Assembly: GCA_022824395.1 (NCBI GenBank)
Contig: JAJDZX010000015.1
Coordinates: 1 to 64,000, forward strand
DNA from: Alphaproteobacteria bacterium
GTDB lineage: Bacteria; Pseudomonadota; Alphaproteobacteria; TMED109
Reading direction: 5' to 3'
Length of the DNA: 64,000 bases
The notes beneath the pieces were generated by a model. That model did no database searches and was not told where the DNA came from. It worked only from the letters and a program-made list of their open reading frames with translations. How positions within the stretch are numbered: position 1 is the stretch's first letter; each line of letters begins with the position of its first letter. Positions 14,319 to 49,220 of the stretch are shown piece by piece. A program made the translations under genes and the position numbers.

Positions 14319-15448
14319 ACCGCCGGTCCCGGGTCGTCGTCGCGATGTCGGGCGGCGTGGACAGCTCCGTGGTCGCCGCGTTGCTGCACGAGGCAGGACA
14401 CGACGTCATCGGCATCACGTTGCAGCTGTACGCCCGGGGGAGCCGCAGTGCCGGCACGAAGACCTGCTGTGCCGGTCAGGACGTGTACGACGCCCGTCGG
14501 GTGGCCGACCATCTGGGAATCCCGCACTACGTGCTCGATTACGAGAAGCGTTTCCACGACGGCGTCATGCAGGACTTCGCCGACCGCTATGCGGAAGGCG
14601 TGACTCCGGTTCCCTGTGTCCTTTGCAATCAACGGGTGAAGTTCCGCGATCTGCTGGCAACGGCGCTTGAGCTGGATGCCGACTGGATGGCCACCGGCCA
14701 TTACGTCCGTCGGGTCGAGGGGGCGGCCGGCCCGGAACTTCACCGGGCCGCGGACGCCGCCAAGGACCAGAGCTACTTCCTGTTCGCCACCGCCCGCAGC
14801 CAGCTCGAGCGCCTCCGTTTTCCCCTGGGGGGCTTTTCCAAGGAACAGACGCGCCGGGCCGCGGCGCGGGCCGGCATCGGCGTGGCGGAAAAGCCGGAGA
14901 GCCAGGACATCTGCTTCGTTCCCGGCGGCAACTACCGCGACGTCGTCCGGTCGCTGCGGCCTGACACCGCCGCGGCGGGCGACGTCGTCCACGTGGATGG
15001 TCGCGTGCTGGGCCGGCACGCCGGCATCTCCGGCTTCACGGTTGGCCAGCGCCGCGGCCTGGGGATTGCCGACGCGGGCCGGCCGCTCTACGTGATCCGG
15101 ATCGATGCGTCGGAACGGCGCGTTGTCGTGGGGCCGAAGGAGACGCTTGGTGTCTCCAGCATCACGATTCGCGATGTCAACTGGATCGCCGACGAAGCGT
15201 CGGCGCCCGGGACCGAGCTGCGCGACGTGATGCTCCGGGTGCGCTCCACGCATCGTGGCACGCCCGGCCGGGTCCGGCTGTTGGCGGGCGGGCGGGCAGA
15301 AGTGTCATTCGTGGCGCCGGAACGGGCGGTCGCGCCTGGCCAGGCGGCGGTGTTCTATCGGGACTCCCGCGTCTTGGGGGGAGGCTGGATCGAGCCCCGG
15401 TCGTGCTGGCCACCGGTGCGGGCCGATGACGAGGTCAGAGCGGCGTGA
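14315..15448 (+). CDS. mnmA: tRNA-specific 2-thiouridylase MnmA
   Basis: A 377-residue cytoplasmic enzyme that thiolates U34 of tRNA-Lys, -Glu and -Gln using persulfide sulfur and ATP. It has the PP-loop SGGVDSS (12-18), catalytic Cys104 in CVLCNQRVKF and Cys200 in ESQDICFVPGG, with GHYVRR in between. ATG 14315 overlaps the stop of the hydrolase by 4 bp; the frame is open further upstream but that sequence is antisense-like to no family. It is coupled downstream to the YbdK gene. Confidence 0.95.
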   Translation: MNRRSRVVVAMSGGVDSSVVAALLHEAGHDVIGITLQLYARGSRSAGTKTCCAGQDVYDARRVADHLGIPHYVLDYEKRFHDGVMQDFADRYAEGVTPVPCVLCNQRVKFRDLLATALELDADWMATGHYVRRVEGAAGPELHRAADAAKDQSYFLFATARSQLERLRFPLGGFSKEQTRRAAARAGIGVAEKPESQDICFVPGGNYRDVVRSLRPDTAAAGDVVHVDGRVLGRHAGISGFTVGQRRGLGIADAGRPLYVIRIDASERRVVVGPKETLGVSSITIRDVNWIADEASAPGTELRDVMLRVRSTHRGTPGRVRLLAGGRAEVSFVAPERAVAPGQAAVFYRDSRVLGGGWIEPRSCWPPVRADDEVRAA

Positions 15449-33376: not shown

Positions 33377-35845
33377 ATGCGTACGCAGTTTTTCACGTGC
33401 CGGTTCATCTCGGCAAGCATCTTGGCGTCGATGCTGTTGGCCCCTAGTGCATCTGCGCAGGAAGATGGCTTGACGGCTCTTGAAGAAGTTGTCGTCCTCG
33501 GATCGCGGCGGCAGCAGCCGCGTTCAGTTACCGCCTCGCCCGTTCCGGTGGACGTGATCAGCGGCGAGCAATTCAGCCGCACCGGTAATACAGCCGACGC
33601 TACCGACAACCTGCTGGCTACGGTTCCGTCGTTCAACGCTACTACGGCGTCCGGCGATTCCGACAGTTTTTCCAGACCAGTGTCGTTGCGTGGCATGGCT
33701 CAGGACCAAATCTTGCTGATGGTCAATGGAAAACGCCGCCACCGTTCGTCGGTGATCGCGCAGTTCGCTCCCGCAGCAGGGGCCGGTGCCCAAGGTCCCA
33801 ACATTGGCATGATCCCACCAATCGCCGCGGAGAGCGTTGAAGTTCTGCGCGACGGCGCCTCTGCGCAATACGGGGCAGACGCTATTGCGGGCGTCATCAA
33901 CTTCCGGTTGAAGGATGCAGCTGATGGTGGTGAAACGCGGATTCAATACGGGCAGTTCTACGAAGGAGAACTGAGCACTCGATGGGAAAGCAATGTCGGA
34001 ATTCCCCTTGGTGTCAAGGGTTTCGCCAACATCAGCATTGACTACACCGACAACGATGGTCTTTCCCGCGGATTTCAGCGGCCAGACGCACAGGCGCTGA
34101 TTGACCAGGGAGTAACGGGCGTTGGCGCAGATTCGCCGTTTGGCGACGGCTTCGCGCAGAGCTGGGGACGTCCCGAAACCCGAAACATCCTTTTCTTCGT
34201 CAATTCCGGGTATGACATTTCAGACAGTGCTGAAGCTTACTTCTTCGGAAACTATGCCAGCACTACCGGACGCTTCCGGTTCTTTTATCGCCCTCCCGAC
34301 CACGAGACGCGAACTCTTTGGCTGGCAGAACGGGGCTATACGGGCTCGGTGCTTGATACGGGTTACACCCCGTACCTGGACGGAAAGCAGCTGGATTACA
34401 GCATGGTGGGCGGGGTCCGCGGGCTTCTCGCCAATGGCCTCTCGTACGATGTAAGCGCCGCAGTTGGTTCCAACGAGCTCGACCACTACCTGCACAACGC
34501 GGTGAGTTACGCGATCGATCCGGAACCGAATGACATCGGGAAGCGGTCGTTCTACATCGGTGCTTTCGGACAGCAGGAAACCAGCCTCAATGCCGACTTT
34601 ACGAGGCTAATGACGGATGAACTGCACCTCGCGTTTGGCGCGGAATGGCGCGAAGAGACGTGGCGACTACGCCAGGGTGAGCCCGATTCTTATGAAGGCG
34701 AGTATCGGGGTCAATTCGGGACTTCCCCGGCTGGCATGGAGGGGTTCAGGCCGGAGAACGCGGGTTCATGGTCGAGGGATAACCTGGGGCTGTATGCGGA
34801 GTTGGAACAGGACGCGACCGACCGGATGTTCTTGCAGTATGCACTCCGTTTCGAAGATTACTCGGACTTCGGTGACGTAGTGATTGGGAAGGCCGCCGCT
34901 CGATTCGATGCCACCGACGACATAGTCCTCCGAGGTTCCGTCTCCACCGGGTTCCATGCACCCACCCCCGGACAGTCGAACTTCCAGCGTGAAACCACCA
35001 CGTTTGACTGCCCGGAAGCAGGTGCCGGCTTCATCGGCGACTGTGTCCTCGGAGACGTGAGGCCGGGCAGCGACGCAGCGGTCGCCCAAGGCGGCGGCCC
35101 ACTCAAGGAGGAGGAATCTGTCAATTTCACCGTCGGGACGGGTTTCCAGCTGGGTGCACTCGGAAACGTCACGGTCGACCTCTACCGCATCGATGTGGAA
35201 GACAGGATCTACAAGGTAACGCCGGCCGGGGTGCATACGGATGCCGACGGCAACGTCACCCAGGACATCGCCGCAGCAACAAGGTTCGCCGGAGCATCGT
35301 TCTATACAAACGTGCTGGATGTACGGTCTTCCGGGTTGGATCTGGTCCTGACGAAGGCAATCAATTGGAACGACAGTGTGCGCTCGGACGTGACACTTGC
35401 ATACAATTTCAACAACTTCGAGGTAGTCGGGCAGGATGAAATCAACGGTCAGCGGCTGGTGAGCGACAACCAGATCGCGAGAATTGAACACAGCTACCCG
35501 CAACACCGTTTAGTGGCCGGTATCAATACGACATTTGGCGGCTGGGATTTCTTGGTCAGGGCTAACTACTTTGGCAAGCATTACGATGTTGACAGGGGTA
35601 GTATCCCAGAGGGCACATCGTCGCCGATTGACCCTGTTGTATTTATTGACGTCGAACTTGGTTACCAGCTCAGCGATACGTTGCGCTTGGTTGCGGGGGC
35701 ATCGAACATTTTCGACGAGTACGTCGACAGGGTGGACCCCGACAGATACGCAAATCGATACGGGAACGGGCTACCCTATCCCCGCCGAGCTGCACCGAAT
35801 TACGAGGGTGGCTCGTGGTACGTCCGAGCCCAGTACTCGTTCTAG
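33377..35845 (+). CDS. TonB-dependent outer-membrane receptor
   Basis: An 822-residue receptor. Signal peptide about 1-27 ending SASAQ. A TonB-box-like stretch EEVVVLGS follows directly. The plug domain (about 50-170) includes LRGMAQDQILLMVNGKRRH and EVLRDGASAQYGADAIAGVI. The rest is a 22-strand barrel ending in Phe (VRAQYSF), the outer-membrane insertion signal. The ligand is not evident; siderophores, vitamins and glycans are all possible. No exbB/exbD/tonB genes are nearby. A paralogue follows 0.9 kb downstream on the same strand. Confidence 0.92.
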   Translation: MRTQFFTCRFISASILASMLLAPSASAQEDGLTALEEVVVLGSRRQQPRSVTASPVPVDVISGEQFSRTGNTADATDNLLATVPSFNATTASGDSDSFSRPVSLRGMAQDQILLMVNGKRRHRSSVIAQFAPAAGAGAQGPNIGMIPPIAAESVEVLRDGASAQYGADAIAGVINFRLKDAADGGETRIQYGQFYEGELSTRWESNVGIPLGVKGFANISIDYTDNDGLSRGFQRPDAQALIDQGVTGVGADSPFGDGFAQSWGRPETRNILFFVNSGYDISDSAEAYFFGNYASTTGRFRFFYRPPDHETRTLWLAERGYTGSVLDTGYTPYLDGKQLDYSMVGGVRGLLANGLSYDVSAAVGSNELDHYLHNAVSYAIDPEPNDIGKRSFYIGAFGQQETSLNADFTRLMTDELHLAFGAEWREETWRLRQGEPDSYEGEYRGQFGTSPAGMEGFRPENAGSWSRDNLGLYAELEQDATDRMFLQYALRFEDYSDFGDVVIGKAAARFDATDDIVLRGSVSTGFHAPTPGQSNFQRETTTFDCPEAGAGFIGDCVLGDVRPGSDAAVAQGGGPLKEEESVNFTVGTGFQLGALGNVTVDLYRIDVEDRIYKVTPAGVHTDADGNVTQDIAAATRFAGASFYTNVLDVRSSGLDLVLTKAINWNDSVRSDVTLAYNFNNFEVVGQDEINGQRLVSDNQIARIEHSYPQHRLVAGINTTFGGWDFLVRANYFGKHYDVDRGSIPEGTSSPIDPVVFIDVELGYQLSDTLRLVAGASNIFDEYVDRVDPDRYANRYGNGLPYPRRAAPNYEGGSWYVRAQYSF

Positions 35846-35924: not shown

Positions 35925-36645
35925 CCCGACGTGAGGTTGAGCATCACGCGGTGACGACCCCAACTCGGGTTGGGGCTTCGTCTTAGTTGACCGTCATCAG
36001 TGCGCGGTGCGCGCGCCGGCAGGCGTTGAATCAGGTTCGTTCAGGCATCGTCGAACAATGGCGTCTTCGGTAGGCCGTTAGCCAGTTCCGTTGGCTAACT
36101 GATTGCGCTGCATTGCGGGCGGATATTCGACGGAGCCAGACGTAAAGCGTCCTTGGCGGCTGTTCGCATGTTGCTGGCCCGCTTCGCTCACCGACGCCTG
36201 GTCTGACGGGGTCTGGCGGCGTTGGTGAGCGGAGCGGTCTAGCTCAGAAAGGCGCAGCCAATAACAGAATGAAGCTACGAATCCGTGGCCGTCGGATTCC
36301 CAAGTCGTACCTGCTGAGCGACTCGAGGTCGAATCGTCCGAGATAGCTTCCACCGACTTAACCCCGTCGGCGTCCAATTGGTGAACTGCAGAGGGATGCG
36401 ACTGGGCCGATGCATGCCATCCGAGCGTTGTTCATGGCGAACGGCTCTCCTGATGACATCGTTCGGGTATCTGGCTTCGTTAGAGAGCGGGAATAAGTGT
36501 GCCGAATTGGGTGCTTTGCACAGAATTTAGGAGCGTCCTTCTATCGGCATACAATGACTGAACATTGGGTCAATGCGGCACTGGTGCGGCAAATGCCAAG
36601 ATGCCATTGAAATGCCGCGATAGCTGAATCAAGAAATTGCAGAAG
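35925..36645. other. Intergenic region between the two TonB receptor genes
   Basis: About 720 bases with no supported gene; open frames are short and without domain character. It contains the 20-bp inverted repeat at 36179-36237 (separate entry). The last 200 bases are A/T-rich and lead into a predicted promoter for the second receptor. Confidence 0.5.
36179..36237. repeat. Inverted repeat, 20-bp arms
   Basis: Arms at 36179-36198 (CCGCTTCGCTCACCGACGCC) and 36218-36237 (GGCGTTGGTGAGCGGAGCGG) are complementary at 18 of 20 positions, and both mismatches would be G-U pairs in RNA. The 19-base loop lacks a poly-T tail, so it is not a classic terminator. It may be a degenerate palindromic repeat or a processed RNA hairpin. 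No copy was seen elsewhere in the window by eye. Confidence 0.55.
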
Positions 36646-36673
36646 TTGAAATTTCCTGACCGGATATTAAGAT
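36646..36673 (+). promoter_or_regulatory. Predicted sigma70-type promoter of the second TonB receptor gene
   Basis: TTGAAA (36646-36651) and TAAGAT (36668-36673) are spaced by 16 bases, within an A/T-rich tract 39 bases before the chosen ATG at 36712. Consistent with a short leader; the -10 match is moderate. Confidence 0.4.
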
Positions 36674-36711
36674 TCCATATTTCCGGACGCGTTGTAACCG
36701 AGGATAGTTCC

Positions 36712-39267
36712 ATGTCTCGATACAAGGTTTTGACTCGCTATCTACTTTCGGTTTTCGTGGCAGGAGCGTTCGCGATTGACGCCGTGGCTCAAGATGACGT
36801 CCCGGCTCAGGGTCCTGAGATCACGGTGCTGGAAGCGGTCCCGGTAATCGGTTCACGAAGGGCAGCTCGGTCCGCGTCCGAATCTCCGGCTCCCGTGGAC
36901 ATCATCAATAGAGAAACTCTCACTACGCAGCGTAGTATCGATTTGGACAGCCAAATAGCCCGGGTGGTGCCGTCCTACAATGTGGACGACCAAGCCATCA
37001 ACGATGCTGCGACGTTGGTTCGTCCAGCCAGTCTTCGGGGCTTGCCGCCGGACACCGCCTTGGTCTTGATCAATGGCAAGAGGCGGCATCGCGCGTCCGT
37101 GATAACTTGGCTTGGCGGCGGGATCGCGAACGGTTCTCACGGGCCTGACATCGCGGCGATTCCGGCGATTGCGATCAAGCGCCTTGAAGTATTGCGTGAT
37201 GGAGCATCTGCGCAGTACGGGTCCGATGCCATAGCAGGGGTCCTCAACTTTGTTCTTCGGGACGCACCTACGGGCGGCGAGGTTAATATTGAAGTCGGTC
37301 GGCACTATGAAGACGATGGTGCCGCGCACAGCTTTGCAGCCAACGTCGGCGTGCCGCTAGGCGAAGGCGGATTCTCCAATCTGAGCCTGGAATTTAGCGG
37401 GCTTGATCCGACCAGTCGTAGCGTTCAGCGTGGCGATGCACAGGCCTTGATCGACGCGGGCAATTTGAGCGTACGCGCTCCCGCCGCGCAAGTTTGGGGT
37501 ACGCCGGCGGTCGACGGAAATTTCAAATTCTTCGGTAACGCGGAAGCCGAGATAAGTGACACCGTAACAGCTTATGCCTTCGGGAATGTTTCGAGCCGAA
37601 CCGTGGAAGGAGGATTCTACTATCGCAACCCAACAAGCCGTTCAGGCGTGTTTAGTAATGACAACGGCCAAACGCTCCTTGTCGCTGACCTTTCCGCCGA
37701 CGCGTCAGCGAATTGCCCGGTAGTCCCCATTACGGATCACCTACCCGATGCGAACGCGCTTGCCGGTGTCAGTGCGAATCCCGATTGCTTTGCATTCGTC
37801 GAACGGTTCCCCGGAGGGTTCACCCCGCAGTTTGGTGGCGAAGTCGACGACAGGAGTTTGGCGGTCGGTATCAGAGGGAGCCTGAGCGATGACTGGAGCT
37901 ACGACCTCAGCGCAGTGACCGGACAGCATCGCACCGAGTTTTACATGGAAAACACCATCAACCCGCAGTTGGCCGCACAACAACTGGATATTCCGACGAA
38001 CTATCAGCCGGGAGCGTACGAGGAAGTCGACGTGGTGGTGAACGCAGATATTGCTGGTCTGGTTGACGTCCCAATGCTGGTAGCTCCGCTTTCCACCGCG
38101 TTCGGCCTTGAATATCGAAGGGAATCTTTCGAGGTGTTCGCGGGTGACCCCAACTCCTACTACGTAAATCCAAGTCTCGCGCGTCAAGGTTTCGGGGTCG
38201 GATCGAACGGGTTTCCAGGCTTTCAGCCGCGTATTGCCGGGAAAGAAAGCCGCGACAGCGTTGCCGGTTATATCGATCTTGAGGCGGATCTCACGGAGAA
38301 TCTTCTGACCGCAGTTGCCGTTCGTTACGAGAGTTACAGCGGTTTCGACGACACGCTGGATGGCAAGCTGGCCGCGCGTTGGCAAGCCACGAATAACATT
38401 GCGCTCCGAGGCTCCGTGGGAACGGGTTTCCGAGTCCCGACCATTGGGCAAGCTACGGTCGAAAACGTAACCACTTCATTTGAAGGCGGGCAGCTATCCG
38501 ACGAAGCGACGCTGTCTCCCACCAACCCTATTGCAGTGCGAAAGGGTGCGAAGCCGTTGCGTCCCGAAGAATCCGAGAATTTCAACCTCGGCGCCGTATT
38601 ACAATTGGGCAATCTGGACGCCACGATTGATGCATACAGGATCAATCTGAATGGCAGAATCGCCACGACGAGCAATCAGACTTTGACGCCCGAAGACAAG
38701 CAGGCATTATTTGCATTAGGCATATTAGATGCACCGAGTTACACGGCAATCAAATTCTTCACCAATGACTTTGACACGGTAACGCGCGGCATCGATGTTG
38801 CCACCACCTATACTTCTGATGCCCTGAGCGGCCAAACTACTTACTACGTGTCCTTAAGTTATCTCGATACGGAAGTGACTAAGTTCAATCCAGACATTAT
38901 TTCAGACCACAGGGTGCGACTTCTGGAAGAGTCGCTTCCCAAGACCCGTGCGGTAGTTGAGGCCAACCATCGAAGGGGCGCGCTCAGAATTATGGGCAGA
39001 GTCCGCTACTACGACAGCTTCTACAATGAACCGACCGGCGATGTGGCCGACATCGCGTATACCGCGGGTAGCAAAGTGTTCCTTGATGCAGAGATTGCTT
39101 ACACCCTTGCCAGCAATCTCACGCTTGCGATCGGTGCCGAGAATCTGCTTGATGAGTATCCGGACGAGAATCCGCTCGCCGCGATATTGGGAGACCGGTA
39201 CGCGGTCAAGGCACCTTACGGCTTCAATGGCGGTTTCTATTATGCCCGTGCGAACTGGAGTTTCTAG
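36712..39267 (+). CDS. TonB-dependent outer-membrane receptor (second copy)
   Basis: An 851-residue receptor, paralogous to the preceding one. ATG 36712 follows GAGGA and gives a signal peptide ending AVAQ; the frame is open to a TTG at 36637. The plug has LRGLPPDTALVLINGKRRH and EVLRDGASAQYGSDAIAGVL, almost the same wording as the first receptor. The barrel ends in ARANWSF with terminal Phe. It differs strongly in the extracellular loops, so ligands probably differ. Base composition is less GC-rich than most of the window. Confidence 0.92.
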   Translation: MSRYKVLTRYLLSVFVAGAFAIDAVAQDDVPAQGPEITVLEAVPVIGSRRAARSASESPAPVDIINRETLTTQRSIDLDSQIARVVPSYNVDDQAINDAATLVRPASLRGLPPDTALVLINGKRRHRASVITWLGGGIANGSHGPDIAAIPAIAIKRLEVLRDGASAQYGSDAIAGVLNFVLRDAPTGGEVNIEVGRHYEDDGAAHSFAANVGVPLGEGGFSNLSLEFSGLDPTSRSVQRGDAQALIDAGNLSVRAPAAQVWGTPAVDGNFKFFGNAEAEISDTVTAYAFGNVSSRTVEGGFYYRNPTSRSGVFSNDNGQTLLVADLSADASANCPVVPITDHLPDANALAGVSANPDCFAFVERFPGGFTPQFGGEVDDRSLAVGIRGSLSDDWSYDLSAVTGQHRTEFYMENTINPQLAAQQLDIPTNYQPGAYEEVDVVVNADIAGLVDVPMLVAPLSTAFGLEYRRESFEVFAGDPNSYYVNPSLARQGFGVGSNGFPGFQPRIAGKESRDSVAGYIDLEADLTENLLTAVAVRYESYSGFDDTLDGKLAARWQATNNIALRGSVGTGFRVPTIGQATVENVTTSFEGGQLSDEATLSPTNPIAVRKGAKPLRPEESENFNLGAVLQLGNLDATIDAYRINLNGRIATTSNQTLTPEDKQALFALGILDAPSYTAIKFFTNDFDTVTRGIDVATTYTSDALSGQTTYYVSLSYLDTEVTKFNPDIISDHRVRLLEESLPKTRAVVEANHRRGALRIMGRVRYYDSFYNEPTGDVADIAYTAGSKVFLDAEIAYTLASNLTLAIGAENLLDEYPDENPLAAILGDRYAVKAPYGFNGGFYYARANWSF

Positions 39268-39508: not shown

Positions 39509-40873
39509 CTACATGGAAATGATCTCGCGTGCGGCTCTCTCGCCGGATTCCATAGTGCCCTCCATGCCTCTAGCAGTGCGGGCGAGGTGTTCGCCACAAA
39601 AGTGAATGCGGCCATGTGACTGGCTCATCGTCGCACCAAACTTCGCAATCTGTCCGGGCTTGAAATACGCCCAGGCGCCTTTCGCGCAGGGGTCCTTGCC
39701 CCATGCCTTGTGCCCCAGGTACTCGAGCTTTCCCTTAGCGGCAGGCCGAACCGACTCGATGGCCCCCAGCACCGCGCGTACGCCATCCTCTTCGGGTAGA
39801 GAAGCGAGACGCTTTGCTCTTGCTCCCATGATCCAGGCCGTGAAGCTCGTGACTTCCTCAGGGTTCTTGCCATTCCGGGCGGCGGCGAACATCCCGGCTG
39901 GTCCATCCGTGAACATGCTGGGTGCGTAACCATCGTCGTCCCAGAAGTTGGACCGATGTGCGAAGTACATTTGTGTGACTGGCTGGGACGCCAATGAGCG
40001 GAGAGCTTCGCCTGACAGAGCCATCGGTGTTGGTTCGATGGTCACGTCCCGGAGCACGCCGACTGGCAGCGCGCAGACGACGTGCGGGGCCACGTGCACG
40101 TCACCGCTGGCACAGCGAACCTCTGCTTCGTGGTTTCCGGTGGTGATCGCGGTGACCGTTTGGCAGAATTGCACCCCCTCGTCGAGGAGATCCGCCATGG
40201 CCGCCGGAATTCGCTGCACGCCGTTCTCGACCGTATAGCCAAGCACGCCGTCGGGAGCTGACCGGCGTTGGGCGACGGAAAAGGCTGCCCGGAAGAACAG
40301 GAGCAAGGCCGACACGTCGCCGGCGTGATCGCCGAAACTGGGGTTTACGTCGTAGGCGATCCGCACTCCCGCTTCGTCCAGTCCCAATCCCGCCAGCCAC
40401 GACCGCACCGACACGTCGTGGCCCGCGAATTTGGGATCGAGCCACCGCTCGGGAGCAGGAAGAGGGTTGTCCTGAACCGCTAGCACGCGATGCAGGTTCC
40501 AGGGCATACGCGTCTTGAATGGTTCCGGGAAGACATTGCGCGGATGCCCGGGCCATTCGGATTGGCGGATCAGCTCGCCGTCCAGCACCAAGTCCTGTTC
40601 CCGGAAGAACGCCAGCATCGGGGTGACGTCGACCAGCTCGATGCCGACCCGTGCGCAGACGGCCGTGATCCGTTCGTAGCCGGCCCCAATGTAGGTGCCG
40701 CCGGCTTCCTGTGAATGGCCCTGTTGCCGCATCGAATGCACCCGGCCCCCGACGTGGTCCCGTGCTTCGAGCACTTGGACCCGGGCACCGCCTTCCTGCA
40801 GGTGCAGGGCCGCGTTGAGCCCGGCCAGTCCCGCGCCGATGACAATGACGTCTGCGCCCGTGTAGCGCCTCAT
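39509..40873 (-). CDS. FAD-dependent amine oxidase family protein in the heme operon
   Basis: A 454-residue flavoprotein. The Rossmann motif GAGLAG (13-18) and EARDHVGGRVHS bind FAD; the C-terminal segment FCGEHLARTARGMEGTMESG is of the monoamine-oxidase type. ATG 40873 overlaps the ferrochelatase stop by 4 bp, so it is tightly coupled to heme genes. The related enzyme CgoX (HemY), which oxidises coproporphyrinogen III, belongs to the same FAD superfamily. The sequence looks more like an amine oxidase than canonical CgoX, so assignment to that step is inference. Confidence 0.75.
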   Translation of the reverse strand: MRRYTGADVIVIGAGLAGLNAALHLQEGGARVQVLEARDHVGGRVHSMRQQGHSQEAGGTYIGAGYERITAVCARVGIELVDVTPMLAFFREQDLVLDGELIRQSEWPGHPRNVFPEPFKTRMPWNLHRVLAVQDNPLPAPERWLDPKFAGHDVSVRSWLAGLGLDEAGVRIAYDVNPSFGDHAGDVSALLLFFRAAFSVAQRRSAPDGVLGYTVENGVQRIPAAMADLLDEGVQFCQTVTAITTGNHEAEVRCASGDVHVAPHVVCALPVGVLRDVTIEPTPMALSGEALRSLASQPVTQMYFAHRSNFWDDDGYAPSMFTDGPAGMFAAARNGKNPEEVTSFTAWIMGARAKRLASLPEEDGVRAVLGAIESVRPAAKGKLEYLGHKAWGKDPCAKGAWAYFKPGQIAKFGATMSQSHGRIHFCGEHLARTARGMEGTMESGERAAREIISM

Positions 40874-41973
40874 CGGAACCACCGCGGTCCCGGCAAGGGA
40901 CTGCCACCGAGAGCAGCGGCCGGCAGGCCCGGCCTTCCCGACAGGCAGCAGTTAGCGGGGCAGAAGTCGTGGCTCGGTCCGTGCCGGCCGAGTGCGATGC
41001 GCTCGGAGCGCGGCTCGGAGCGCTCCCGAAGGAGATCGCAGACCATGGCGATGAACGCCGGGTGGGTTCCGACCGTCCCCGCCCGGACGAGGTTGATCCC
41101 GGCTGCATCAGCCGCGTCCCTGGCTTCATGGTCGAGATCCAGGGTCACCTCCAGGTGATCGCAGACGAAGCCAATTGGGGCGACCACGATGTCCCGCTCG
41201 CCGCAATCCCGTTCCTCCACGACGGCATCACAGATGTCGGGACCGAGCCATCGTTCGCCGCCGTAACGCGCGTTGTTGCTCTGGTACGCGAGCCGCCACC
41301 GGCGGGCGTTCCGCTCGCCCAGCGCGAGGTTCACCAGCCTGCATGCCTCGCGCAACTGGGCGACGTAGGGTGCGGCTCGGGCGGCTGCCTCGGGCAGACT
41401 GTGCGCCGTGAACACGATCGGCGTTCGGGACCGCCGCCCCGCCGGGATCTCCGCGAGTGCGGAGCGCACCCGGTCGGCGAATGCCTCGAGGAAGCCCGGA
41501 TGGTTGTAGCCGTACCGAAGCCGGTCGATAGCGGGGGCCTGCTCCAACCCTTCTGTGGCATGGTGCAGGTCTTCGCGGTAGCGCCGGCAGCCGCTGTAGG
41601 AACTGAACATGCTGGTGACAAAGGCCGCGGCGCGACCGATCCCGTCTGTCGCCATCGTCCGAAGGGTGTCGGACAAGAAGGGATGCCAGTTGCGGTTTCC
41701 CAGGTAGACGGGCAGCTGGAGTTCGCGCCGCGCGAGTTCCTCCCGTACCGCCGCAACCAGATTCCGGGTGTGCTCGGCGATGGGGCTCACGCCACCGAAC
41801 CGCGCGTACCGGTCGACGATCATGCGTCGCGTGGAGTCTGGCAGTGTCAATCCGTGGAGCACGTTGTCGAGGAACGGCTCCACGTCCGCCATCCCTTCCG
41901 GTCCGCCGAACGAGACGATCAGGAGCGCGTCGTACCGCTTAGCCGTTGAATCGGCGAACGGTGAATCACTCAC
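40870..41973 (-). CDS. cpfC: Coproporphyrin ferrochelatase CpfC-type (HemH)
   Basis: A 367-residue ferrochelatase. Catalytic His191 (FTAHSLP) and Glu275 (CDHLEV) are present. SFGGPEG, GVSPI, GNRNWHPFL and SSYSGCRRYRED resemble actinobacterial CpfC enzymes more than proteobacterial protoporphyrin ferrochelatases. Cys129 with C-terminal Cys338, Cys342 and Cys343 could ligate a 2Fe-2S cluster, as described for mycobacterial ferrochelatase. GTG 41973 shares GTGA with the stop of the decarboxylase gene. The neighbour supports insertion of iron into coproporphyrin III. Confidence 0.85.
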   Translation of the reverse strand: MSDSPFADSTAKRYDALLIVSFGGPEGMADVEPFLDNVLHGLTLPDSTRRMIVDRYARFGGVSPIAEHTRNLVAAVREELARRELQLPVYLGNRNWHPFLSDTLRTMATDGIGRAAAFVTSMFSSYSGCRRYREDLHHATEGLEQAPAIDRLRYGYNHPGFLEAFADRVRSALAEIPAGRRSRTPIVFTAHSLPEAAARAAPYVAQLREACRLVNLALGERNARRWRLAYQSNNARYGGERWLGPDICDAVVEERDCGERDIVVAPIGFVCDHLEVTLDLDHEARDAADAAGINLVRAGTVGTHPAFIAMVCDLLRERSEPRSERIALGRHGPSHDFCPANCCLSGRPGLPAAALGGSPLPGPRWFR

Positions 41974-42737
41974 TCCGGGGAACCGTCCAGATTCGCGCCG
42001 CGGCCCTGCCAAGCGACACGCCCTACAAAGAACGGGCCCAGGCTGTCCAGGTACTGCGATGTCTGCTCGGTGCTGCGCATGGCCTGCACGACAGCGGAAA
42101 GGGGATGCAGCTCCTTACCCACGAGTCCGACGACGAAGTCGTTGTCGTTCTTGTCGAGACCGTGGCAGGCGAGTCGGATGTCGTGGGCCAGCCCGGCCGA
42201 TCCGAAGCGGTGCCCGAGCGTTCCGTGTTCGGCGAGGATCTGTCGCTGATGGCCGACATCCAGCGCCGCGAAGCCCTTGGCCCGCCGGAGCGGGTACCAG
42301 ACCGCCCACCGCAGGTCCGGGTCAGTGATCCGCTCGATCGGGCGGTCGAAGAGCACGTGCTCGAGGTCCGATTCGTAACCGATCGCGTAGGTGCGGCCGA
42401 ACATCTCGAACTCTTCCTTGCGAACGAGGTTCGCGAACGGCACGCGGTTCAGCAGGACGCGGAGGTTGTCGACGAAGTAGTCCGGATCTTCGTTCACGAC
42501 TGCCAGCCCGATGCCGGTCGGGTCACCAACCTCAAGGTACAAGGCCCCCACCACGCCGGCGGCCGAGAGCGCTTCGATCACGGGGGCGGGATCCGGGCAG
42601 CCTCCGTAGGCGGTGAATCGCACGAACAGACGCCGATCAAGAGAGATCGGCGTCGCACCACGCCGTCCCTTTTCGCTGATGTCGATGGGTTCCGGACCAC
42701 TCAGATGTTCCGGACGCTGCACGTGCTGCTCGGTCAT
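41970..42737 (-). CDS. chdC: Coproheme decarboxylase ChdC (HemQ, chlorite dismutase family)
   Basis: A 255-residue protein of the Dyp/chlorite-dismutase superfamily. In ChdC it converts coproheme III to heme b with peroxide. Tyr148 in WYPLRRAKGF corresponds to the radical-forming catalytic tyrosine, and His171 in LAEHGTLGHRF to the proximal heme ligand. RTYAIGYE and the late QTSQYLDSLGPFFVGR also fit. ATG 42737 follows a strong GGAGGG; the frame extends upstream without such a site. It lies between hemE and the ferrochelatase gene, matching the coproporphyrin-dependent pathway. Confidence 0.85.
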   Translation of the reverse strand: MTEQHVQRPEHLSGPEPIDISEKGRRGATPISLDRRLFVRFTAYGGCPDPAPVIEALSAAGVVGALYLEVGDPTGIGLAVVNEDPDYFVDNLRVLLNRVPFANLVRKEEFEMFGRTYAIGYESDLEHVLFDRPIERITDPDLRWAVWYPLRRAKGFAALDVGHQRQILAEHGTLGHRFGSAGLAHDIRLACHGLDKNDNDFVVGLVGKELHPLSAVVQAMRSTEQTSQYLDSLGPFFVGRVAWQGRGANLDGSPE

Positions 42738-42866
42738 CGAACCCTCCGCTCCAGAAGGACTTGGGCTGGTGCGGTCGACGGGTTGGCTTCGCACGAGCGA
42801 CACCTCGCCGGGTTCCGCCCGTTTCGAGAATTCCTGCCCGCCAAGATCAACGCTGCCAGCTTTCGG

Positions 42867-43940
42867 TCAATGTGCCTCTCCACGAACGGTCTCCACAAGC
42901 GCTGCAACACTTTCGACCGGGGTGTTCGGTAGCACCCCGTGGCCCAGGTTGACGATATGGCCACGTGGGTGCACCTCGTTCAGGAGAGTCTTCGCCGCCG
43001 TCCGGGTGGGCCCGGGGCCAGCGGTCAGGATCGCCGGATCGAGGTTGCCCTGCACGGCACGCCGGTGCCCGTGGCGGTCCTGCAGGGCCCGGAGGTCGAC
43101 CCGCCAATCCACGGCGAGCCCCTCTGCCGGCAATGCTGCGTAGGCCTCGACGAGATGAGGGGCGTTGTTTACGAACAGGATTCGCTTGATCCCGGCATCG
43201 CCGACGGCGTCCAGCATGGCCTCGAGATGCGGCCTGACCAGACGTTGCCACGCAGCAAGCGGTAACAGGCCGGCCCACGAATCAAAGATCTGGACCGCGT
43301 TGGCGCCGGCCTGACCCTGACGGATCAGGTAGTCCGCCATGAGGCGGGAGAGGCGGGCAAGCAGCCGCTCGAGCGCCTGGGGCTCAGCCGCTGCAAACGC
43401 GCGGAGGAGGGGGAAATCCTTGATGCCCCGGCCCTCGATGAGATAGGCCGCCAGGGTCCAGGGGGCGCCGCAGAATCCCAGGAGCGCCGTGTCGGCCGGC
43501 AGATCTCGGCGGACCAGCCCGATCGCTTCGATGACTTCGGGCGCCGCTTCCGCCACGTCGGCATCCGGCAGGGCCGCCACGTCGGCGGCGCTCCGGATCG
43601 GTTCCGCCACGACCGGCCCCGGGGCGAAATCGAATTCGATGCCCAAGGCCGGGAGCGGGCTCATGATGTCGGCGAAGATGATGGCCGCATCCAGCGGAAA
43701 CCGGCGGAGCGGCTGCAGGGTAACCTCGGCGGCGAGGTCGGCGCTGCCGGCCAGTTCCTTGAAGCTGTGCTGCTCGCGGAGCTTCCGGTACTCGGGCAGG
43801 TAGCGTCCGGCCTGGCGGTTGATCCACAACGGCCGCCGTGGCGTCGGCTCGCGCACCAGCGCGCGATCCAGCAGTGTGCGCGGGTCTGCGCCCGCTTCTG
43901 GTGTCGCGGCCGCGATCGAGGTGACACCGGAACCCGTCAC
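42867..43940 (-). CDS. hemE: Uroporphyrinogen decarboxylase
   Basis: A 357-residue cytosolic enzyme that decarboxylates uroporphyrinogen III to coproporphyrinogen III. The signature WINRQAGRYLPEYR lies near residues 39-52, and FADIMSPLPALG and GFCGAPWTLAAY follow. The C-terminal GHGVLPNTPVE is typical. GTG start at 43940. It provides the branch substrate for the downstream decarboxylase/ferrochelatase genes on the same strand, 129 bases away. Confidence 0.94.
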   Translation of the reverse strand: MTGSGVTSIAAATPEAGADPRTLLDRALVREPTPRRPLWINRQAGRYLPEYRKLREQHSFKELAGSADLAAEVTLQPLRRFPLDAAIIFADIMSPLPALGIEFDFAPGPVVAEPIRSAADVAALPDADVAEAAPEVIEAIGLVRRDLPADTALLGFCGAPWTLAAYLIEGRGIKDFPLLRAFAAAEPQALERLLARLSRLMADYLIRQGQAGANAVQIFDSWAGLLPLAAWQRLVRPHLEAMLDAVGDAGIKRILFVNNAPHLVEAYAALPAEGLAVDWRVDLRALQDRHGHRRAVQGNLDPAILTAGPGPTRTAAKTLLNEVHPRGHIVNLGHGVLPNTPVESVAALVETVRGEAH

Positions 43941-44001
43941 GAGGACAGCGGTCCGTTATGGGCTGACGCAGACACCTGTCCGCCGGCCATGACAGCGGGG
44001 C

Positions 44002-45003
44002 TCACAGCCACCGCTCCCGAAGGGCGTCGCGGCAGTGGTAGGTGATGATCAGGTCGGCGCCGGCCCGGGCGATCGCCAGCAGGTTTTCCCGCACCACCCG
44101 GGCTTCGTCCAGCCAGCCGCGCTCCGCCGCGGCCTTCACAGCGGAATACTCGCCGGAGACGTTGTAGGCGGCGAGCGGCCTGACCGTGGCTGCCCGCACG
44201 GCCGCGATCACGTCCAGGTACGCAAGCGCCGGCTTCACCATGAGCATGTCCGCGCCCTCCTGCTCGTCCAGATCCGCCTCGCGGATCGCCTCCAGCACAT
44301 TGCGGCAGTCCATCTGGTATCCCTGCCGGTCGCCTTCCGATGGAGCGGAGTCGGCGGCCTCACGGAAGGGACCGTAGTAGGCCGAGGCGTACTTCGCTGT
44401 GTAAGCGAGAATGGCCACTCCCTGGCGGCCGTCGGCATCGAGCGCGTCGCGGATCGCGCCGACCCGTCCGTCCATCATGTCCGACGGGGCGACGACGTCG
44501 GCCCCGGCGCGAGCGTGGCTGAGCGCCGTTTCGACAAGGGGCCGGAGAGAACGGTCGTTGTCCACATCGCCGCCCTCGATCAATCCGCAGTGGCCGTGGT
44601 CGGTGTAGGCGCAGAGACAGACGTCCGTCATCACGACCAGATCGTCCCCGAACGCATCCTTCAGGCGTGCAACCGCACGTTGCACGGCGCCGCCGTCGTC
44701 GGTTGCCGCCCGCCCGTCCGGAGCCTTGGTGCCGGGAGCCGGCTGACCGAAGAGCAGCACGGTGCGAATCCCGAGGGCGAGGTCGGCTTCCACCTGCGGA
44801 ACCAGTCGGTCCACCCCCATGCAGGCGATGCCGGGCATGGCGGACACGGGCTCTTCGGCTCTGTCCGCCGGCAGGACGAAGTGCGGCAGCACGAACTGGC
44901 TGGGCGCGATGCGGGTTTCGGCCACCAGGTCCCGCACGGCGCGGCTCCGCCGCAGGCGCCTCGGCCGGTCACGGCCGGGAAGCGTGATCTTCAGTTCGCG
45001 CAA
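44002..45003 (-). CDS. hemB: Delta-aminolevulinic acid dehydratase (porphobilinogen synthase)
   Basis: A 333-residue enzyme that condenses two ALA molecules to porphobilinogen. Schiff-base Lys257 (LMVKPALAYLD) and Lys204 (YTAKYASAYYGPFR) are present. Cys129, Cys131 and Cys139 (DVCLCAYTDHGHC) make a zinc-type site. The TTG start at 45003 lies within the end of hemD (13-bp overlap) and I see no better start nearby. Confidence 0.94.
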   Translation of the reverse strand: MRELKITLPGRDRPRRLRRSRAVRDLVAETRIAPSQFVLPHFVLPADRAEEPVSAMPGIACMGVDRLVPQVEADLALGIRTVLLFGQPAPGTKAPDGRAATDDGGAVQRAVARLKDAFGDDLVVMTDVCLCAYTDHGHCGLIEGGDVDNDRSLRPLVETALSHARAGADVVAPSDMMDGRVGAIRDALDADGRQGVAILAYTAKYASAYYGPFREAADSAPSEGDRQGYQMDCRNVLEAIREADLDEQEGADMLMVKPALAYLDVIAAVRAATVRPLAAYNVSGEYSAVKAAAERGWLDEARVVRENLLAIARAGADLIITYHCRDALRERWL

Positions 45004-45728
45004 TGCAGTGTCTCCATCAGTCCCGGCAGCCCGGGCTGCGGCGCCTCTCCCGTTACGTCAAGTCCGGCGGCCCGTGCTGCACGGGTCGTCGACGGTCCGA
45101 TCGTGAAGATATCTAGGGTTGTATCCAAACGTACCTGATTGCAGAAACCTGTGACGGCCGACGGGCTGGCAAGGAACACGTTGCGCGCGCCGAGTTCCGA
45201 GGCGGCCAGCCGGTGGCGAAGGCGGGGGAGAGGGGAAGTTCGATAGAGCTCGGCACGCATGCAGGCATGCCCGGAGGCCTCGAAGGCGTCCTCGAGGGCC
45301 CGGCCGGCGTTCTCCGCGACCGCGATCAGCACCCGGTCTTCGGGCGCGAGGCGCGGTACCAGCTCTGCCGCCAGCGCGGCGGCGGTCCCGCCGGTCCCCA
45401 CCAGGTCGATGCGGCCAAGGCGCGTCCGCGCTTCCGCTGCCGTGACGGGCCCGACGGCCGCCACGTTGATGCGGCCAAGGGGCAGCGAACGCGGCGGGCA
45501 GAGGCGCGCCAATGCCGCCACGCCGCGTTTGGACGTGAACGCCATCCACTGCACGCGGGGGACTTCCCGCGCCAGTTGCGCGCGCAGCACCGAAGTCGTG
45601 ACGTCTTCGCATCGGATGCAGGGAAAGATGACCGGAACCGCCCCGAGGTCTTCGATTTCGGCGGCCCATTCGGCACAGTCCTCGCGGGTTCGCGTGAGGA
45701 GGATTCGATCGCGCGGAGGCGGCCGCAT
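44991..45728 (-). CDS. hemD: Uroporphyrinogen-III synthase
   Basis: A 245-residue, poorly conserved two-domain enzyme that cyclises hydroxymethylbilane with ring D inversion. ILLTRTREDCAEWAAEIEDLG at the N-terminus, VQWMAFTSKRGVAAL in the first domain and FLASPSAVTGF near residue 207 are characteristic. The position between hemC and hemB makes the call firm. ATG 45728 follows hemC by 93 bases on the minus strand. Confidence 0.9.
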   Translation of the reverse strand: MRPPPRDRILLTRTREDCAEWAAEIEDLGAVPVIFPCIRCEDVTTSVLRAQLAREVPRVQWMAFTSKRGVAALARLCPPRSLPLGRINVAAVGPVTAAEARTRLGRIDLVGTGGTAAALAAELVPRLAPEDRVLIAVAENAGRALEDAFEASGHACMRAELYRTSPLPRLRHRLAASELGARNVFLASPSAVTGFCNQVRLDTTLDIFTIGPSTTRAARAAGLDVTGEAPQPGLPGLMETLHCAN

Positions 45729-45821
45729 CAGCGTATCTCGGTCACAGTATCTTGCGGAGCTTCGGACGGATCGCCGGCATGACGGTGCGCTTGGAGGGTC
45801 CGCATTTTCAACCGTCGCCTA

Positions 45822-46760
45822 TCAGGAAGTTGACGGAGTGCCGGTCCGCGTCGGGTTCAACAGCCGCCAGAGATCGTCAGCCACGGCCGAAGGCTCGGTG
45901 CCGTGGCCGGTTTCCGCCGTTATGCGCCCCTCCCGCTCCAGCATCGCGTGCATGATGCATTTGCTGTCGCTCGAGTCGCAGTACGCCCCGAACGCCAGTT
46001 CACAGCCACCTTCCAGCCGACCCAGCAGCAGTCGCTCGGCGTCGATGGCGTTGCGGGTGTCCAAATGGTCGATCGGAGCCAGCACTTCCTGCACATCGAC
46101 GCGGTCCCGCCGGCATTGCAGCGCCAGCGCGCCCTGGGCAGGCGCAGGCACGAATTGCTCCGGATCGAGGCGCTCGACGGTAATGCCTGCAGAACTGAAG
46201 ACCGTCGGTTCGTCTGGCCCGCTGGTTTGGAGACGCGCAAGGCCGGCCGCGGCCAGCACGATGGCGTCGTAACCACCTTCCTGAAGGCGTCGAATGCGTG
46301 TGGGCACGTTGCCCCGAAGGGGCTCGGGCCTCAGGTCCGTGCGGAGATGATGGAGCCAGGCCTGCCGGCGCACCGAGGAAGTCCCCACCCGCGCTCCCTC
46401 GGGTAACGGCAGGAACCCGTTGCCGCGGTCCACGAGTTCAGTGCGGATGAGCAGGCAGTCCGCGGCATCGATCCTGGGCGGTACGGCCGCGATGGCGAGT
46501 TCGTCTGAACCGCTTGTGGGGACATCCTTGTAGGAGTGAACGGCGAGATCGATGGCCCCTGCAGCCAGGGCCTGACTGATTTCCCGCACGAATACGCCTT
46601 GGGGCCCGATGGATGCGAACACGGGCGCCCTTGACCGGTCGCCGGCAGTGGTGATCGGCACCAGTTCGGTCGTGTGACCGGCTGCAACGAGTTCCCTTGC
46701 GATGCTCTCGGACTGGGCACGCGCGAGATGGGAGTTGCGTGTGCCGATGCGCAGCCTCAT
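45822..46760 (-). CDS. hemC: Hydroxymethylbilane synthase (porphobilinogen deaminase)
   Basis: A 312-residue enzyme polymerising four porphobilinogens. Dipyrromethane cofactor attachment is Cys253 in LEGGCELAFG. RIGTRNSHLARAQS at the start and VHSYKDVPT, GTSSVRRQAWL and RGNVPTRIRRL are hallmark motifs. ATG 46760 follows GGAG; the frame stays open upstream to 46844. It is the first gene of the minus-strand heme run. Confidence 0.95.
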   Translation of the reverse strand: MRLRIGTRNSHLARAQSESIARELVAAGHTTELVPITTAGDRSRAPVFASIGPQGVFVREISQALAAGAIDLAVHSYKDVPTSGSDELAIAAVPPRIDAADCLLIRTELVDRGNGFLPLPEGARVGTSSVRRQAWLHHLRTDLRPEPLRGNVPTRIRRLQEGGYDAIVLAAAGLARLQTSGPDEPTVFSSAGITVERLDPEQFVPAPAQGALALQCRRDRVDVQEVLAPIDHLDTRNAIDAERLLLGRLEGGCELAFGAYCDSSDSKCIMHAMLEREGRITAETGHGTEPSAVADDLWRLLNPTRTGTPSTS

Positions 46761-47019
46761 CCGCTTCTCCCCTCCGGTGCCGAACTTGCTCACCCCGGCC
46801 GAAGACGCCGACAGTACGCGTCCCCATCTGCATGGAGGTCGCAAGGGGCTACCTTAACCGACGCTAGATTGGTGATCAGCCAGTATCCGGGTGCCGGTCC
46901 AGTGCGAGCCACCCCGTCCCGGCGATGGCGATCATGGCGACATGCGGTCGGTGGTGAGTAGCGGCTAAAGGTGTCGGGATGGTGACCGTTGCCTTGCCCC
47001 AGCGAAGAGGGACGACGGG

Positions 47020-47685
47020 ATGACATTCCTATTTCGATGCGTGCTGGTGACCTTGCTCGTTCCGTGGCCCGCTCGTGCCGACGTAGCCGGGCACCCCACG
47101 GTTTTGGACGGCGACACGTTGGAGATCGACGTTCAGCGCATCCGTTTGCACGGCATCGATGCGCCTGAGAGGCGTCAGACGTGCGCCGTTGGAGGGAAAC
47201 CGTGGGATTGCGGGGCGGAAGCGACGCGAGCGCTCGTCGCGCGCATTGCCGACCGTCGCGTGGAGTGCGCAGCAACCGACACGGATCGCTATGGCCGAGT
47301 GGTGGCTGTCTGCAGGTCCGGCGGCGCCGACTTGAACGCGTGGATGGTCGCCAACGGATGGGCCCTCGCGTATCGGCGCTACACTCTGGACTACGTCGAT
47401 CAGGAGCTTGCAGCGCAGGCCGCCCGGCGCGGCATCTGGCGCGGCGAATTCGTCGCGCCATGGGAGTGGCGGCGGGGGAGGCGGCTTGCCAGCTCCGGCG
47501 AGGATGCCGCGAGACCGCCGACGGAATGCCGGATCAAGGGCAACATCAGCCGTCGTGGCGAGCGGATTTACCACGTGCCCGGTGGACGGTACTACGCGCG
47601 CACCCGCATCGATGCGGGGAAGGGGGAACGCTGGTTCTGCTCGGAGCAGGAGGCGCTGTCCGCCGGTTGGCGTTCCGCGCGATAG
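47020..47685 (+). CDS. Thermonuclease-like (SNase) secreted nuclease with extra C-terminal domain
   Basis: A 221-residue protein with an N-terminal signal peptide (about 1-20, ending PARAD). Residues about 25-150 form a staphylococcal-nuclease fold: VLDGDTLEI, RIRLHGIDAPERRQ, DRYGRVVA and GWALAYRRY give the Ca2+-binding and catalytic Arg/Glu set. A conserved tail (CRIKGNISRRGERIYHVPGG, then ERWFCSEQEA, AGW) is typical of proteobacterial members. Probably a periplasmic or extracellular nuclease. Lies divergent from hemC. Confidence 0.85.
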   Translation: MTFLFRCVLVTLLVPWPARADVAGHPTVLDGDTLEIDVQRIRLHGIDAPERRQTCAVGGKPWDCGAEATRALVARIADRRVECAATDTDRYGRVVAVCRSGGADLNAWMVANGWALAYRRYTLDYVDQELAAQAARRGIWRGEFVAPWEWRRGRRLASSGEDAARPPTECRIKGNISRRGERIYHVPGGRYYARTRIDAGKGERWFCSEQEALSAGWRSAR

Positions 47686-48008
47686 TCGGCGGCCAGGCCG
47701 CTTCCCGCGCCCTGTAGTCCAACCTCAGGGGATGATCGTCCCCAGCCCGCTGACAATCCAGATGCCGGGCCGAGTGGAGGCAAAATCGTTTCTTGCATTA
47801 GCGCCCGGATATGGCATCGTTTGCGCGTGTGCAGACCTTGGTGGCCTACCGGCGCCTCACCGTTTTCGTTGTCCTGATCGGCCAATAGGTCGTCCCGCGG
47901 CCGGGCGTCTACCGCCATTGGCCGAAGCCTGTTTGCGCTCTCTCTCCGGGCCGGAGTGGGATGCCAAGTCAGGGACGGCCAACCGCCGCGGCGACGGGAA
48001 ACCGCGAC
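47686..48008. other. Intergenic region upstream of hemA
   Basis: About 320 bases between the nuclease and hemA. No gene or clear terminator is seen. It should contain the hemA promoter, but no confident -35/-10 pair could be identified by eye. GGGA about 10 bases before the hemA ATG may serve as ribosome-binding site. Confidence 0.45.
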
Positions 48009-49220
48009 ATGGACTACCAGCAGTTTTTTTCCGATCGGATCGCCGATCTGAAGGCGGAAGGGCGGTACCGCGTGTTTGCCGACCTGGAACGGCAGGCCGG
48101 GCGGTTCCCGCGGGCGATCAGGCATGCGGGCAGCGCTGCCGATCCCGTTACGGTCTGGTGTTCCAACGACTACCTCGGGATGGGGCAGCACGACGTGGTC
48201 CGCTCGGCGATGCGGACGGCGATCGACGAAGTCGGCGCCGGGGCCGGCGGGACCCGCAACATCTCCGGGACGACCCACCGCCACGTGCTGCTGGAGGAGG
48301 AGCTTGCCGACCTGCACGAGCGGGAGGCAGCGCTGCTGTTTACCTCCGGCTACGTGGCGAACGAGGCGACGCTGTCCACCATCGGGCGTCACCTGCCGGG
48401 GTGCATCCTGTTTTCCGACGAGGCCAACCACGCCTCGATGATCGCCGGCGTCCGGCACGCCATGACCGAGAAATGCATCTTTCGCCACAACGATCGGGAC
48501 GATCTCGAGCAGAGGCTGCGGGCGGCTGATCCGGACCGCCCCAAGGTGATTGCCTTCGAATCGGTGTATTCGATGGATGGCGACATCGCGCCGATCGGGG
48601 CGTTTTGCGAGCTCGCGGCCAAGTACGGGGCCATGACCTATCTCGACGAGGTGCACGCCGTCGGCATGTACGGGCCGCGCGGTGCCGGGGTGGCGGCCCG
48701 TGACGGTGTCATGCACGACATCACGGTCATCCAGGGAACCCTGGCCAAGGCGTTCGGCGTGGTCGGGGGCTACATCGCCGCCTCGGCCTCGGCGGTGGAT
48801 TTCATCCGCTCGTACGCCCCGGGCTTCATCTTCACGACGGCCCTGCCGCCGGCGGTCGCGGCCGGGGCCCTGGCGAGCGTCCGGCATCTGAAGGCGAGTG
48901 ACGCCGAGCGTCGGCTCCATCGGGAGCGCGTCGCGGCGTTGAAGCGGGCGCTTGCGGACTCGGGCCTGCCCGTCATGCCGTCGGAATCGCACATCGTGCC
49001 GGTCCTGGTCGGCGACCCCGTGGTCTGCAAGCGGGCGACGGATCTGCTGCTCGACCGCTACAAGATCTACGTGCAGCCGATCAACTATCCCACCGTGCCG
49101 CGGGGCACTGAACGATTGCGTCTCACGCCGACGCCGCTCCACAGCGATGCCGACATCGCGGCCCTGGTGTCCGCCCTGCAGGCCGTGTGGAAGGAGCTTT
49201 CGATCAGCGTCTCGATCTGA
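48009..49220 (+). CDS. hemA: 5-aminolevulinate synthase
   Basis: A 403-residue PLP enzyme condensing glycine and succinyl-CoA to 5-aminolevulinate, the first step of the Shemin pathway. PLP Lys247 lies in [20 protein letters not shown] holds the PLP-stacking residues. [11 protein letters not shown] and [13 protein letters not shown] are typical of ALAS rather than of KBL or BioF. ATG 48009 follows an open upstream extension. It is 1.2 kb from hemC, transcribed away from it. This is a marker of Alphaproteobacteria. Confidence 0.95.

Follow-up and report, generated by a model that had tools for sequence, protein, structure and literature searches.

Organization of the heme locus

The stretch of DNA analysed here, which we refer to as the window, comprises 64,000 nucleotides (bases 1-64000 of contig 21) of an alphaproteobacterial genome of 3.75 Mb in 133 contigs, and it contains a heme biosynthesis locus that appears to join a Shemin-type start to a coproporphyrin-dependent (CPD) ending. 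On the minus strand, the order of transcription is hemC, hemD, hemB, hemE, chdC, cpfC and a gene for an FAD (flavin adenine dinucleotide) oxidase. The plus strand beside hemC carries a nuclease-like gene (47020-47685) and, divergent from hemC, the gene for 5-aminolevulinate (ALA) synthase, or ALAS, the marker of the Shemin pathway (47961-49220; TIGR01821, 651 bits for a cut-off of 338.55). A preliminary description of this DNA had placed the synthase near hemC, and the measured distance is 1116 bp.

All genes of the operon are on the minus strand, and the first four have clear family assignments: hydroxymethylbilane synthase (hemC, 45822-46844; TIGR00212, 264 bits, cut-off 164), uroporphyrinogen-III synthase (hemD, 44991-45728; PF02602, 138 bits, cut-off 27.5, with the NCBIfam hemD models matched below cut-off only), porphobilinogen synthase (hemB, 44002-45003; NF006762, 448 bits, cut-off 297) and uroporphyrinogen decarboxylase, whose product is coproporphyrinogen III (hemE, 42867-43940; TIGR01464, 357 bits, cut-off 303). 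There are gaps of 93 nt between hemC and hemD, 61 nt between hemB and hemE, and 63 nt between hemE and chdC, and hemD shares 13 nt with hemB. The last three genes, which encode a putative divergent coproheme decarboxylase (chdC, 41970-42803), an actinobacterial-type ferrochelatase (cpfC, 40870-41973) and the FAD oxidase (39509-40882), overlap one another in a chain. The likely start of cpfC is a GTG at 41973 that overlaps the chdC stop codon (GTGA); a longer TTG frame opens at 42012, but in two genomes of the genus (G003 and G005) a stop codon lies inside this longer reading, so the start should be at or near the GTG. The oxidase gene in turn overlaps cpfC by 4 nt or, if an alternative start 9 nt upstream is used, by 13 nt.

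This arrangement is a property of the genus. We compared seven genomes (G000 to G006, 92-97% complete), and all seven carry the order hemC-hemD-hemB-hemE-chdC-cpfC-FAD oxidase together with ALAS, the oxidase of G005 being cut by a contig end. The GTGA overlap is kept in 7/7, as is the overlap of cpfC with the oxidase, which reads ATGA or TTGA (ATG in three genomes and TTG in four). With one gene order in seven of seven genomes, the arrangement of the cassette is not a matter of chance. The five named contigs of the genus come from metagenome-assembled genomes (MAGs), four labelled "Alphaproteobacteria bacterium" and one "Rhodospirillales bacterium SB0662_bin_7", so that one might wonder whether the cassette is foreign DNA introduced by binning or assembly. 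This is very improbable, given that the cassette, ALAS and hemBCDE all lie within a single contig of 102,582 bases, that the same order recurs in at least five differently named MAGs with ChdC proteins 79-90% identical to that of the window, and that the GC content of chdC and cpfC resembles that of the neighbouring genes. A scan of positions 30000-58000 against Rfam yielded zero matches, and a promoter and terminator scan at the locus gave no usable signal.

An actinobacterial-type ferrochelatase

The ferrochelatase protein matches PF00762 with 251 bits, and its nearest PDB entry is a coproporphyrin III ferrochelatase (28wn, 5e-68). In a plasmid collection, the closest proteins are those of Streptomyces, Tsukamurella and Nonomuraea (43-46% identity), and within the genus the identity to the window protein is 78-88%. 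For its phylogeny we used 36 rows, among them 19 alphaproteobacterial HemH rows drawn from the best 20 loci of the 39 genomes outside the genus that have a ferrochelatase; the alphaproteobacterial row L019, whose reading frame was not recovered, was left out, planctomycete ferrochelatases are not among the rows, and the N-terminal ends of some reference rows were trimmed. In the resulting tree, the seven ferrochelatases of the genus and four actinobacterial CpfC proteins form one group (100/100), which nests within the CPD group of Bacillota, Deinococcus and Chlorohelix (100/99), with a long-branched Haloterrigena row outside. Sixteen of the 19 alphaproteobacterial HemH proteins lie across a branch with 100/100 support, and the other three join Haloterrigena in a weak group (84/62).

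The residues point in the same direction. In the proximal column, the genus carries Phe, as do the four actinobacterial CpfC rows and Haloterrigena; Bacillota, Deinococcus and Chlorohelix carry Tyr, and all 19 readable alphaproteobacterial HemH rows carry Leu. According to an excerpt of PMC10427985, this residue is Tyr in Firmicutes and Phe in Actinobacteria. The catalytic His and Glu are kept, and a C-terminal CX3CC motif is found in the genus and in four of the four actinobacterial rows, the CPANCC tail region being close to the tail of Streptomyces CpfC. Such CX(3)CC tails have also been described for ferrochelatases of some Planctomycetes (PMC8529089, in the portion available). Both tree and residues thus assign the protein to the predicted coproporphyrin ferrochelatases (CpfC). 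Because it groups with actinobacterial CpfC at 100/100 and shares with it the Phe and a similar tail, cpfC was probably acquired by gene transfer from an actinobacterial-type source, as had been proposed from the window alone.

Protoporphyrin-branch genes in the genus and its relatives

If the operon ends in the CPD manner, one would expect the protoporphyrin-dependent (PPD) enzymes to be missing elsewhere in the genome. We therefore searched 61 genomes in six frames, namely the seven genomes of the genus, 21 from elsewhere in the family and 33 from other parts of the class. HemF was found in 0/7 genomes of the genus, compared with 16/21 in the rest of the family and 25/33 in the rest of the class, and HemJ in 0/7, compared with 11/21 and 24/33. 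Ferrochelatase, in contrast, is present in 7/7 genomes of the genus, with a single copy in each (246-254 bits), and in 14/21 and 25/33 of the other two sets. Since many genomes of the family are incomplete (54-97%), some of the misses there may have this cause. The HemG family and CgoN (DUF1444) were each found in none of the seven genomes.

For HemN and HemY, matches exist in the genus but none of them exceeds the cut-off. The best HemN match has 104 bits for a cut-off of about 325 (324.95); five genomes besides G000 gave 96.5-102.1 bits and G001 gave none. A HemN-like gene of G000, considered as a hidden PPD enzyme, was rejected, as it is HemW (TIGR00539, 271 bits, cut-off 205). HemY (TIGR00562, cut-off 97.85) exceeded the cut-off in only one of the 61 genomes, which is not of the genus, and the best stretches in the six genomes besides G000 have 29.6-34.5 bits. 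Of the eight stretches of G000 that match the HemY model, seven were inspected, and weak matches among them were considered as possible CgoX enzymes and rejected: the C118 protein is HpnE, the C41 protein is the beta subunit of sarcosine oxidase, and two proteins of contig 46 adjoin YcaO and TfuA genes and have no counterpart above 34.5 bits in the other six genomes. These two HemY/HpnE-like FAD proteins (L057:1242-2699 and 14109-15500, both on the plus strand) have an outer-membrane efflux gene nearby as well.

As each of the seven genomes is more than 90% complete, gaps in the assemblies can hardly be the sole cause of the shared absences. It seems, then, that an ancestral HemF/HemJ/HemH branch, which other genera of the family have kept, was lost in this genus. 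Without HemF or HemN and without HemJ or HemY, no known enzyme would supply protoporphyrin IX.

A divergent putative ChdC with a possibly mixed active site

The chdC product is distant from the known members of its family. Its match to the Pfam family Chlor_dismutase (PF06778, 45.8 bits) is over the cut-off and covers the C-terminal half only (profile positions 92-188 of 189), and the NCBIfam HemQ cut-offs are not reached (28.2 of 235 and 26.3 of 253 bits). A sequence comparison with the PDB gave no match at E 0.001, and the best profile match is the ChdC of Corynebacterium diphtheriae (E 0.47). Window-type ChdC is found in 7/7 genomes of the genus and in 0/54 of the remaining genomes of family and class. 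A pattern-based scan of genome contigs revealed no relatives outside the genus, scans of viral contigs revealed none either, and a plasmid collection gave two weak matches, including a Thermomicrobium protein of the chlorite dismutase family. The protein may also resemble planctomycete proteins. When a low-confidence structural model was submitted to Foldseek, ranks 1 to 31 were all ChdC or chlorite dismutase (Cld), with the ChdC of Streptomyces coelicolor at the top (E 1.3e-5, TM about 0.3).

We aligned the protein with seven ChdC and four Cld references, leaving out the Cld rows G037 and G382 and again trimming the N-terminal ends of some reference rows. Tyr170 aligns with the catalytic tyrosine of the seven ChdC references, where 4/4 Cld rows carry Ile, and His193 aligns with their proximal histidine; both residues are invariant in the seven rows of the genus, and the pattern agrees with the features that distinguish ChdC from Cld in the accessible part of PMC7611857. 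Small profiles built from the same references give 37.6-38.3 bits for ChdC (seven sequences) and 3.9-5.2 bits for Cld (four sequences).

Other positions resemble Cld, namely Arg210, His214 and Asp222-Phe223. Arg210 occupies the column of the Cld distal Arg in 4/5 MAFFT settings with the mixed set, in 5/5 settings with Clds alone (one of which misaligns His193) and in a hidden Markov model (HMM) alignment to the Cld profile, whereas the HMM alignment to a mixed profile puts Asp208 in that column, and two of five settings with ChdCs alone disagree on its placement. Arg210 thus lies no more than two residues from the distal-Arg column, if not in it. A mixed active site that combines a decarboxylase tyrosine with a dismutase-like arginine is plausible, and it is not proven because the column of Arg210 shifts between alignments.

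These Cld-like residues would be expected if the protein were a chlorite dismutase, or another peroxidase of the same fold, that lies in a heme operon by chance, next to a ferrochelatase that uses protoporphyrin IX. We regard this explanation as improbable. Tyr170 and the low Cld profile score led us to reject the chlorite dismutase assignment; the protein is longer than alphaproteobacterial Clds, which are mostly open frames of 185-211 aa; and the protoporphyrin IX that the ferrochelatase would need has no known maker in these genomes. A complete protoporphyrin branch together with a placement among true chlorite dismutases, which the preliminary description had named as an outcome that would speak against a CPD ending, was not obtained, with the reservation that the distal arginine is perhaps of the Cld type.

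PF06778 as a whole is uncommon in the class, with matches in 11/385 genomes, four of which belong to the genus. Outside the genus seven genomes remain: in five the match lies in an open frame of 185-211 aa, in the sixth a long frame covers the final two thirds of the profile, and the seventh holds a fragment below the threshold. In the phylum it occurs in 16/398 genomes, and nearly the whole profile is matched in G561 only, a member of another class, where L108:1276-2133 encodes a long chlorite dismutase of the classical kind that shows the Ile and Arg pattern.

The FAD oxidase as a candidate coproporphyrinogen oxidase

The gene at the end of the operon, which was absent from the preliminary description and is added by the present analysis, encodes a protein of the PF01593 superfamily (204 bits) that remains below the cut-off of the HemY model (TIGR00562, 27.5 bits for a cut-off of 97.85). 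The five other full-length copies of the genus are 75-82% identical to it. Its best PDB matches are monoamine oxidase (MAO) B structures (7e-32). In a tree of 19 rows, without G005 and with a Streptomyces CgoX row read overlong upstream (1117 aa), the operon oxidase groups with MAO-type proteins (100/99), and eight CgoX and PgoX proteins stand apart (100/99); the row closest to the operon oxidase is that of a Novosphingobium protein (37% identity).

Nevertheless, the protein is probably not an ordinary amine oxidase, because hallmark columns of MAO-B are replaced. At the columns of Lys296, Cys397, Tyr398 and Tyr435, which we take to be the active-site lysine, the flavin-linking cysteine and the two tyrosines of the aromatic cage, it has Gln, Ala, Trp and a gap, respectively. 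All six full-length oxidases of the genus share the Gln and the Trp, and five of the six share the Ala, the sixth having Gly.

The family is sparsely distributed: at E 1e-30, it occurs in at least 7/385 genomes and at least 3/276 genera of the class, a lower bound, as at most four candidates were scored per genome. Relatives with leaders that, by eye, look Tat-like are encoded by a paralogue within the genus (G006, contig 106, L127:10-1470, minus strand) and on a plasmid of Novosphingobium humi (L073:8749-10341, plus strand); no heme genes were recognised beside either of them, their flanks being short or unannotated. The oxidase of the heme operon, whose gene is coupled to cpfC, looks like a recruited, leaderless member of this family, and it is our leading candidate for a coproporphyrinogen oxidase of the non-orthologous kind. 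There are precedents for such replacements, as HemY, HemG and CgoN are described as three independent flavin solutions for porphyrinogen oxidation, and HemY and MAO as sharing one superfamily (PMC10965808, in the sections available).

It might also be that the CPD ending is real and that coproporphyrinogen is oxidised by an unrecognised enzyme or by oxygen without catalysis, with the FAD oxidase employed otherwise, for instance to supply H2O2. An oxidase that produces H2O2 would be a plausible neighbour for a ChdC that consumes it, the grouping with MAO-type enzymes and not with CgoX fits this idea, and so do the relatives with Tat-like leaders found without recognised heme genes and the HemY-like protein of G000 that comes close to the cut-off. 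On the other hand, none of the porphyrinogen oxidase families searched exceeds its cut-off in the seven genomes, the position of the oxidase in the operon, overlapping cpfC, is fixed, and the MAO hallmark residues are gone. We consider a separate role for the oxidase unlikely, although it is the most serious competitor to the role in coproporphyrinogen oxidation.

The proposed pathway and its strength

Taking these observations together, we estimate a probability of roughly 70% that organisms of this genus make heme from an ALAS start through HemB, HemC, HemD and HemE to a CPD ending with the FAD oxidase, CpfC and ChdC. In this scheme, ALAS would condense glycine and succinyl-CoA to ALA, and HemB, HemC, HemD and HemE would convert ALA to coproporphyrinogen III. 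The overlapping MAO-side FAD oxidase, replacing a HemY-type CgoX, would probably oxidise coproporphyrinogen III to coproporphyrin III; the transferred actinobacterial-type CpfC would insert iron; and the divergent ChdC would convert coproheme to heme b in an H2O2-driven double decarboxylation. The substrates of all the enzymes, as well as the role of the oxidase, are proposed here from the families to which the proteins belong. The preliminary description had anticipated both the run from hemC to hemE into a ChdC-type gene and an actinobacterial-looking ferrochelatase, which profile matches, PDB comparison and tree bear out, and the union of a Shemin start with a CPD end in one locus, which the sequences of the seven genomes support.

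Several observations weigh against the scheme. One of the contig-46 proteins of G000 (14109-15500) has 96.7 bits in a whole-protein scan with the HemY model, close to the cut-off, and sits on the CgoX side of the FAD tree, while inspection of weak FAD matches covered seven of the eight stretches of G000, and that genome only. With a completeness of 92-97%, a gap could account for the absence of a gene from one genome, but hardly from seven of seven. Members of the oxidase family also occur outside heme operons. As for ChdC, the family models used do not recognise its N-terminal half, and it may carry a Cld-type arginine, a distal residue that ChdCs are described as lacking (PMC7611857, same part). 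The AlphaFold models of both proteins are poor (mean pLDDT of 41.4 for ChdC and 33.7 for the oxidase).

A fuller picture, in which the genus as a whole has a CPD branch of mixed origin, made up of an actinobacterial-type CpfC, a ChdC with both Tyr and Arg, and a flavin porphyrinogen oxidase from the amine oxidase side, has about even chances in our view. If it holds, the last three steps of heme synthesis would have been replaced in one genus while the old branch was kept in its family relatives, which would offer a natural test of why the two branches have their present distribution. In addition, one concrete gene can be named as a candidate new porphyrinogen oxidase, which would be a further independent flavin enzyme for this reaction beside HemY, HemG and CgoN, and the active site of the ChdC may join features held to separate decarboxylases from dismutases.

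Neighbouring genes

Past the end of the operon lie two genes for TonB-dependent receptors (33377-35845 and 36637-39267). A receptor of this type is found at the same place in the five other genomes of the genus that could be read there, with an identity of merely 27-30%. Farther along are two overlapping genes, at 28997-30583 (POR and DUF6537 domains) and 30487-32637 (C-terminal domain of thiamine pyrophosphate enzymes), a pair that presumably resembles indolepyruvate ferredoxin oxidoreductase.

Comparison with known systems

Sulfitobacter donghicola is an alphaproteobacterium. Its CgoN protein is among those reported from single Gram-negative strains in an excerpt of PMC10965808. The open-access literature searched, as far as its text was available, yielded no report of a CPD ending for an alphaproteobacterium, this CgoN protein being the nearest case; in the portions available, alphaproteobacteria are listed as combining the Shemin start with the PPD branch (PMC10991733), and the CPD branch is described as confined to Gram-positives "with a few exceptions" (PMC10740692). 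Among diderms, Dailey et al. 2015 found ChdC in most of the genomes of Planctomycetota and Acidobacteria that they studied, as cited in the available part of PMC10991733. To judge from published descriptions, the genus resembles these organisms in being a diderm host with ChdC, and some Planctomycetes in the CX(3)CC tail of its ferrochelatase.

Compared with the CPD branch of Actinomycetota and Bacillota, which consists of CgoX, CpfC and ChdC, the genus is alike in its actinobacterial-type CpfC, in the Tyr and His of the ChdC family and in that none of the PPD enzymes searched exceeds its cut-off, but it differs in its alphaproteobacterial host and ALA synthase, in having no HemY-type CgoX above the cut-off and in a ChdC that is distant from the sampled references. 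As in Tsukamurella, where hemE, an FAD oxidoreductase gene and hemQ occur together, hemE of the genus adjoins the cassette.

The FAD oxidase and the odd active site of ChdC are the more novel parts of the finding. The oxidase shares the PF01593 superfamily with HemY-type CgoX, but Tsukamurella CgoX has 136.5 bits on TIGR00562, far above the score of the operon oxidase, and the two fall into separate tree groups. It is closer to the MAO family and to the FAD oxidases of Novosphingobium, yet departs from MAO-B at the four active-site columns. In the same way, the ChdC of the genus shares with chlorite dismutase the fold family, the proximal histidine and possibly the distal arginine, and it is set apart from that enzyme by a tyrosine in place of isoleucine and by its low Cld profile score.

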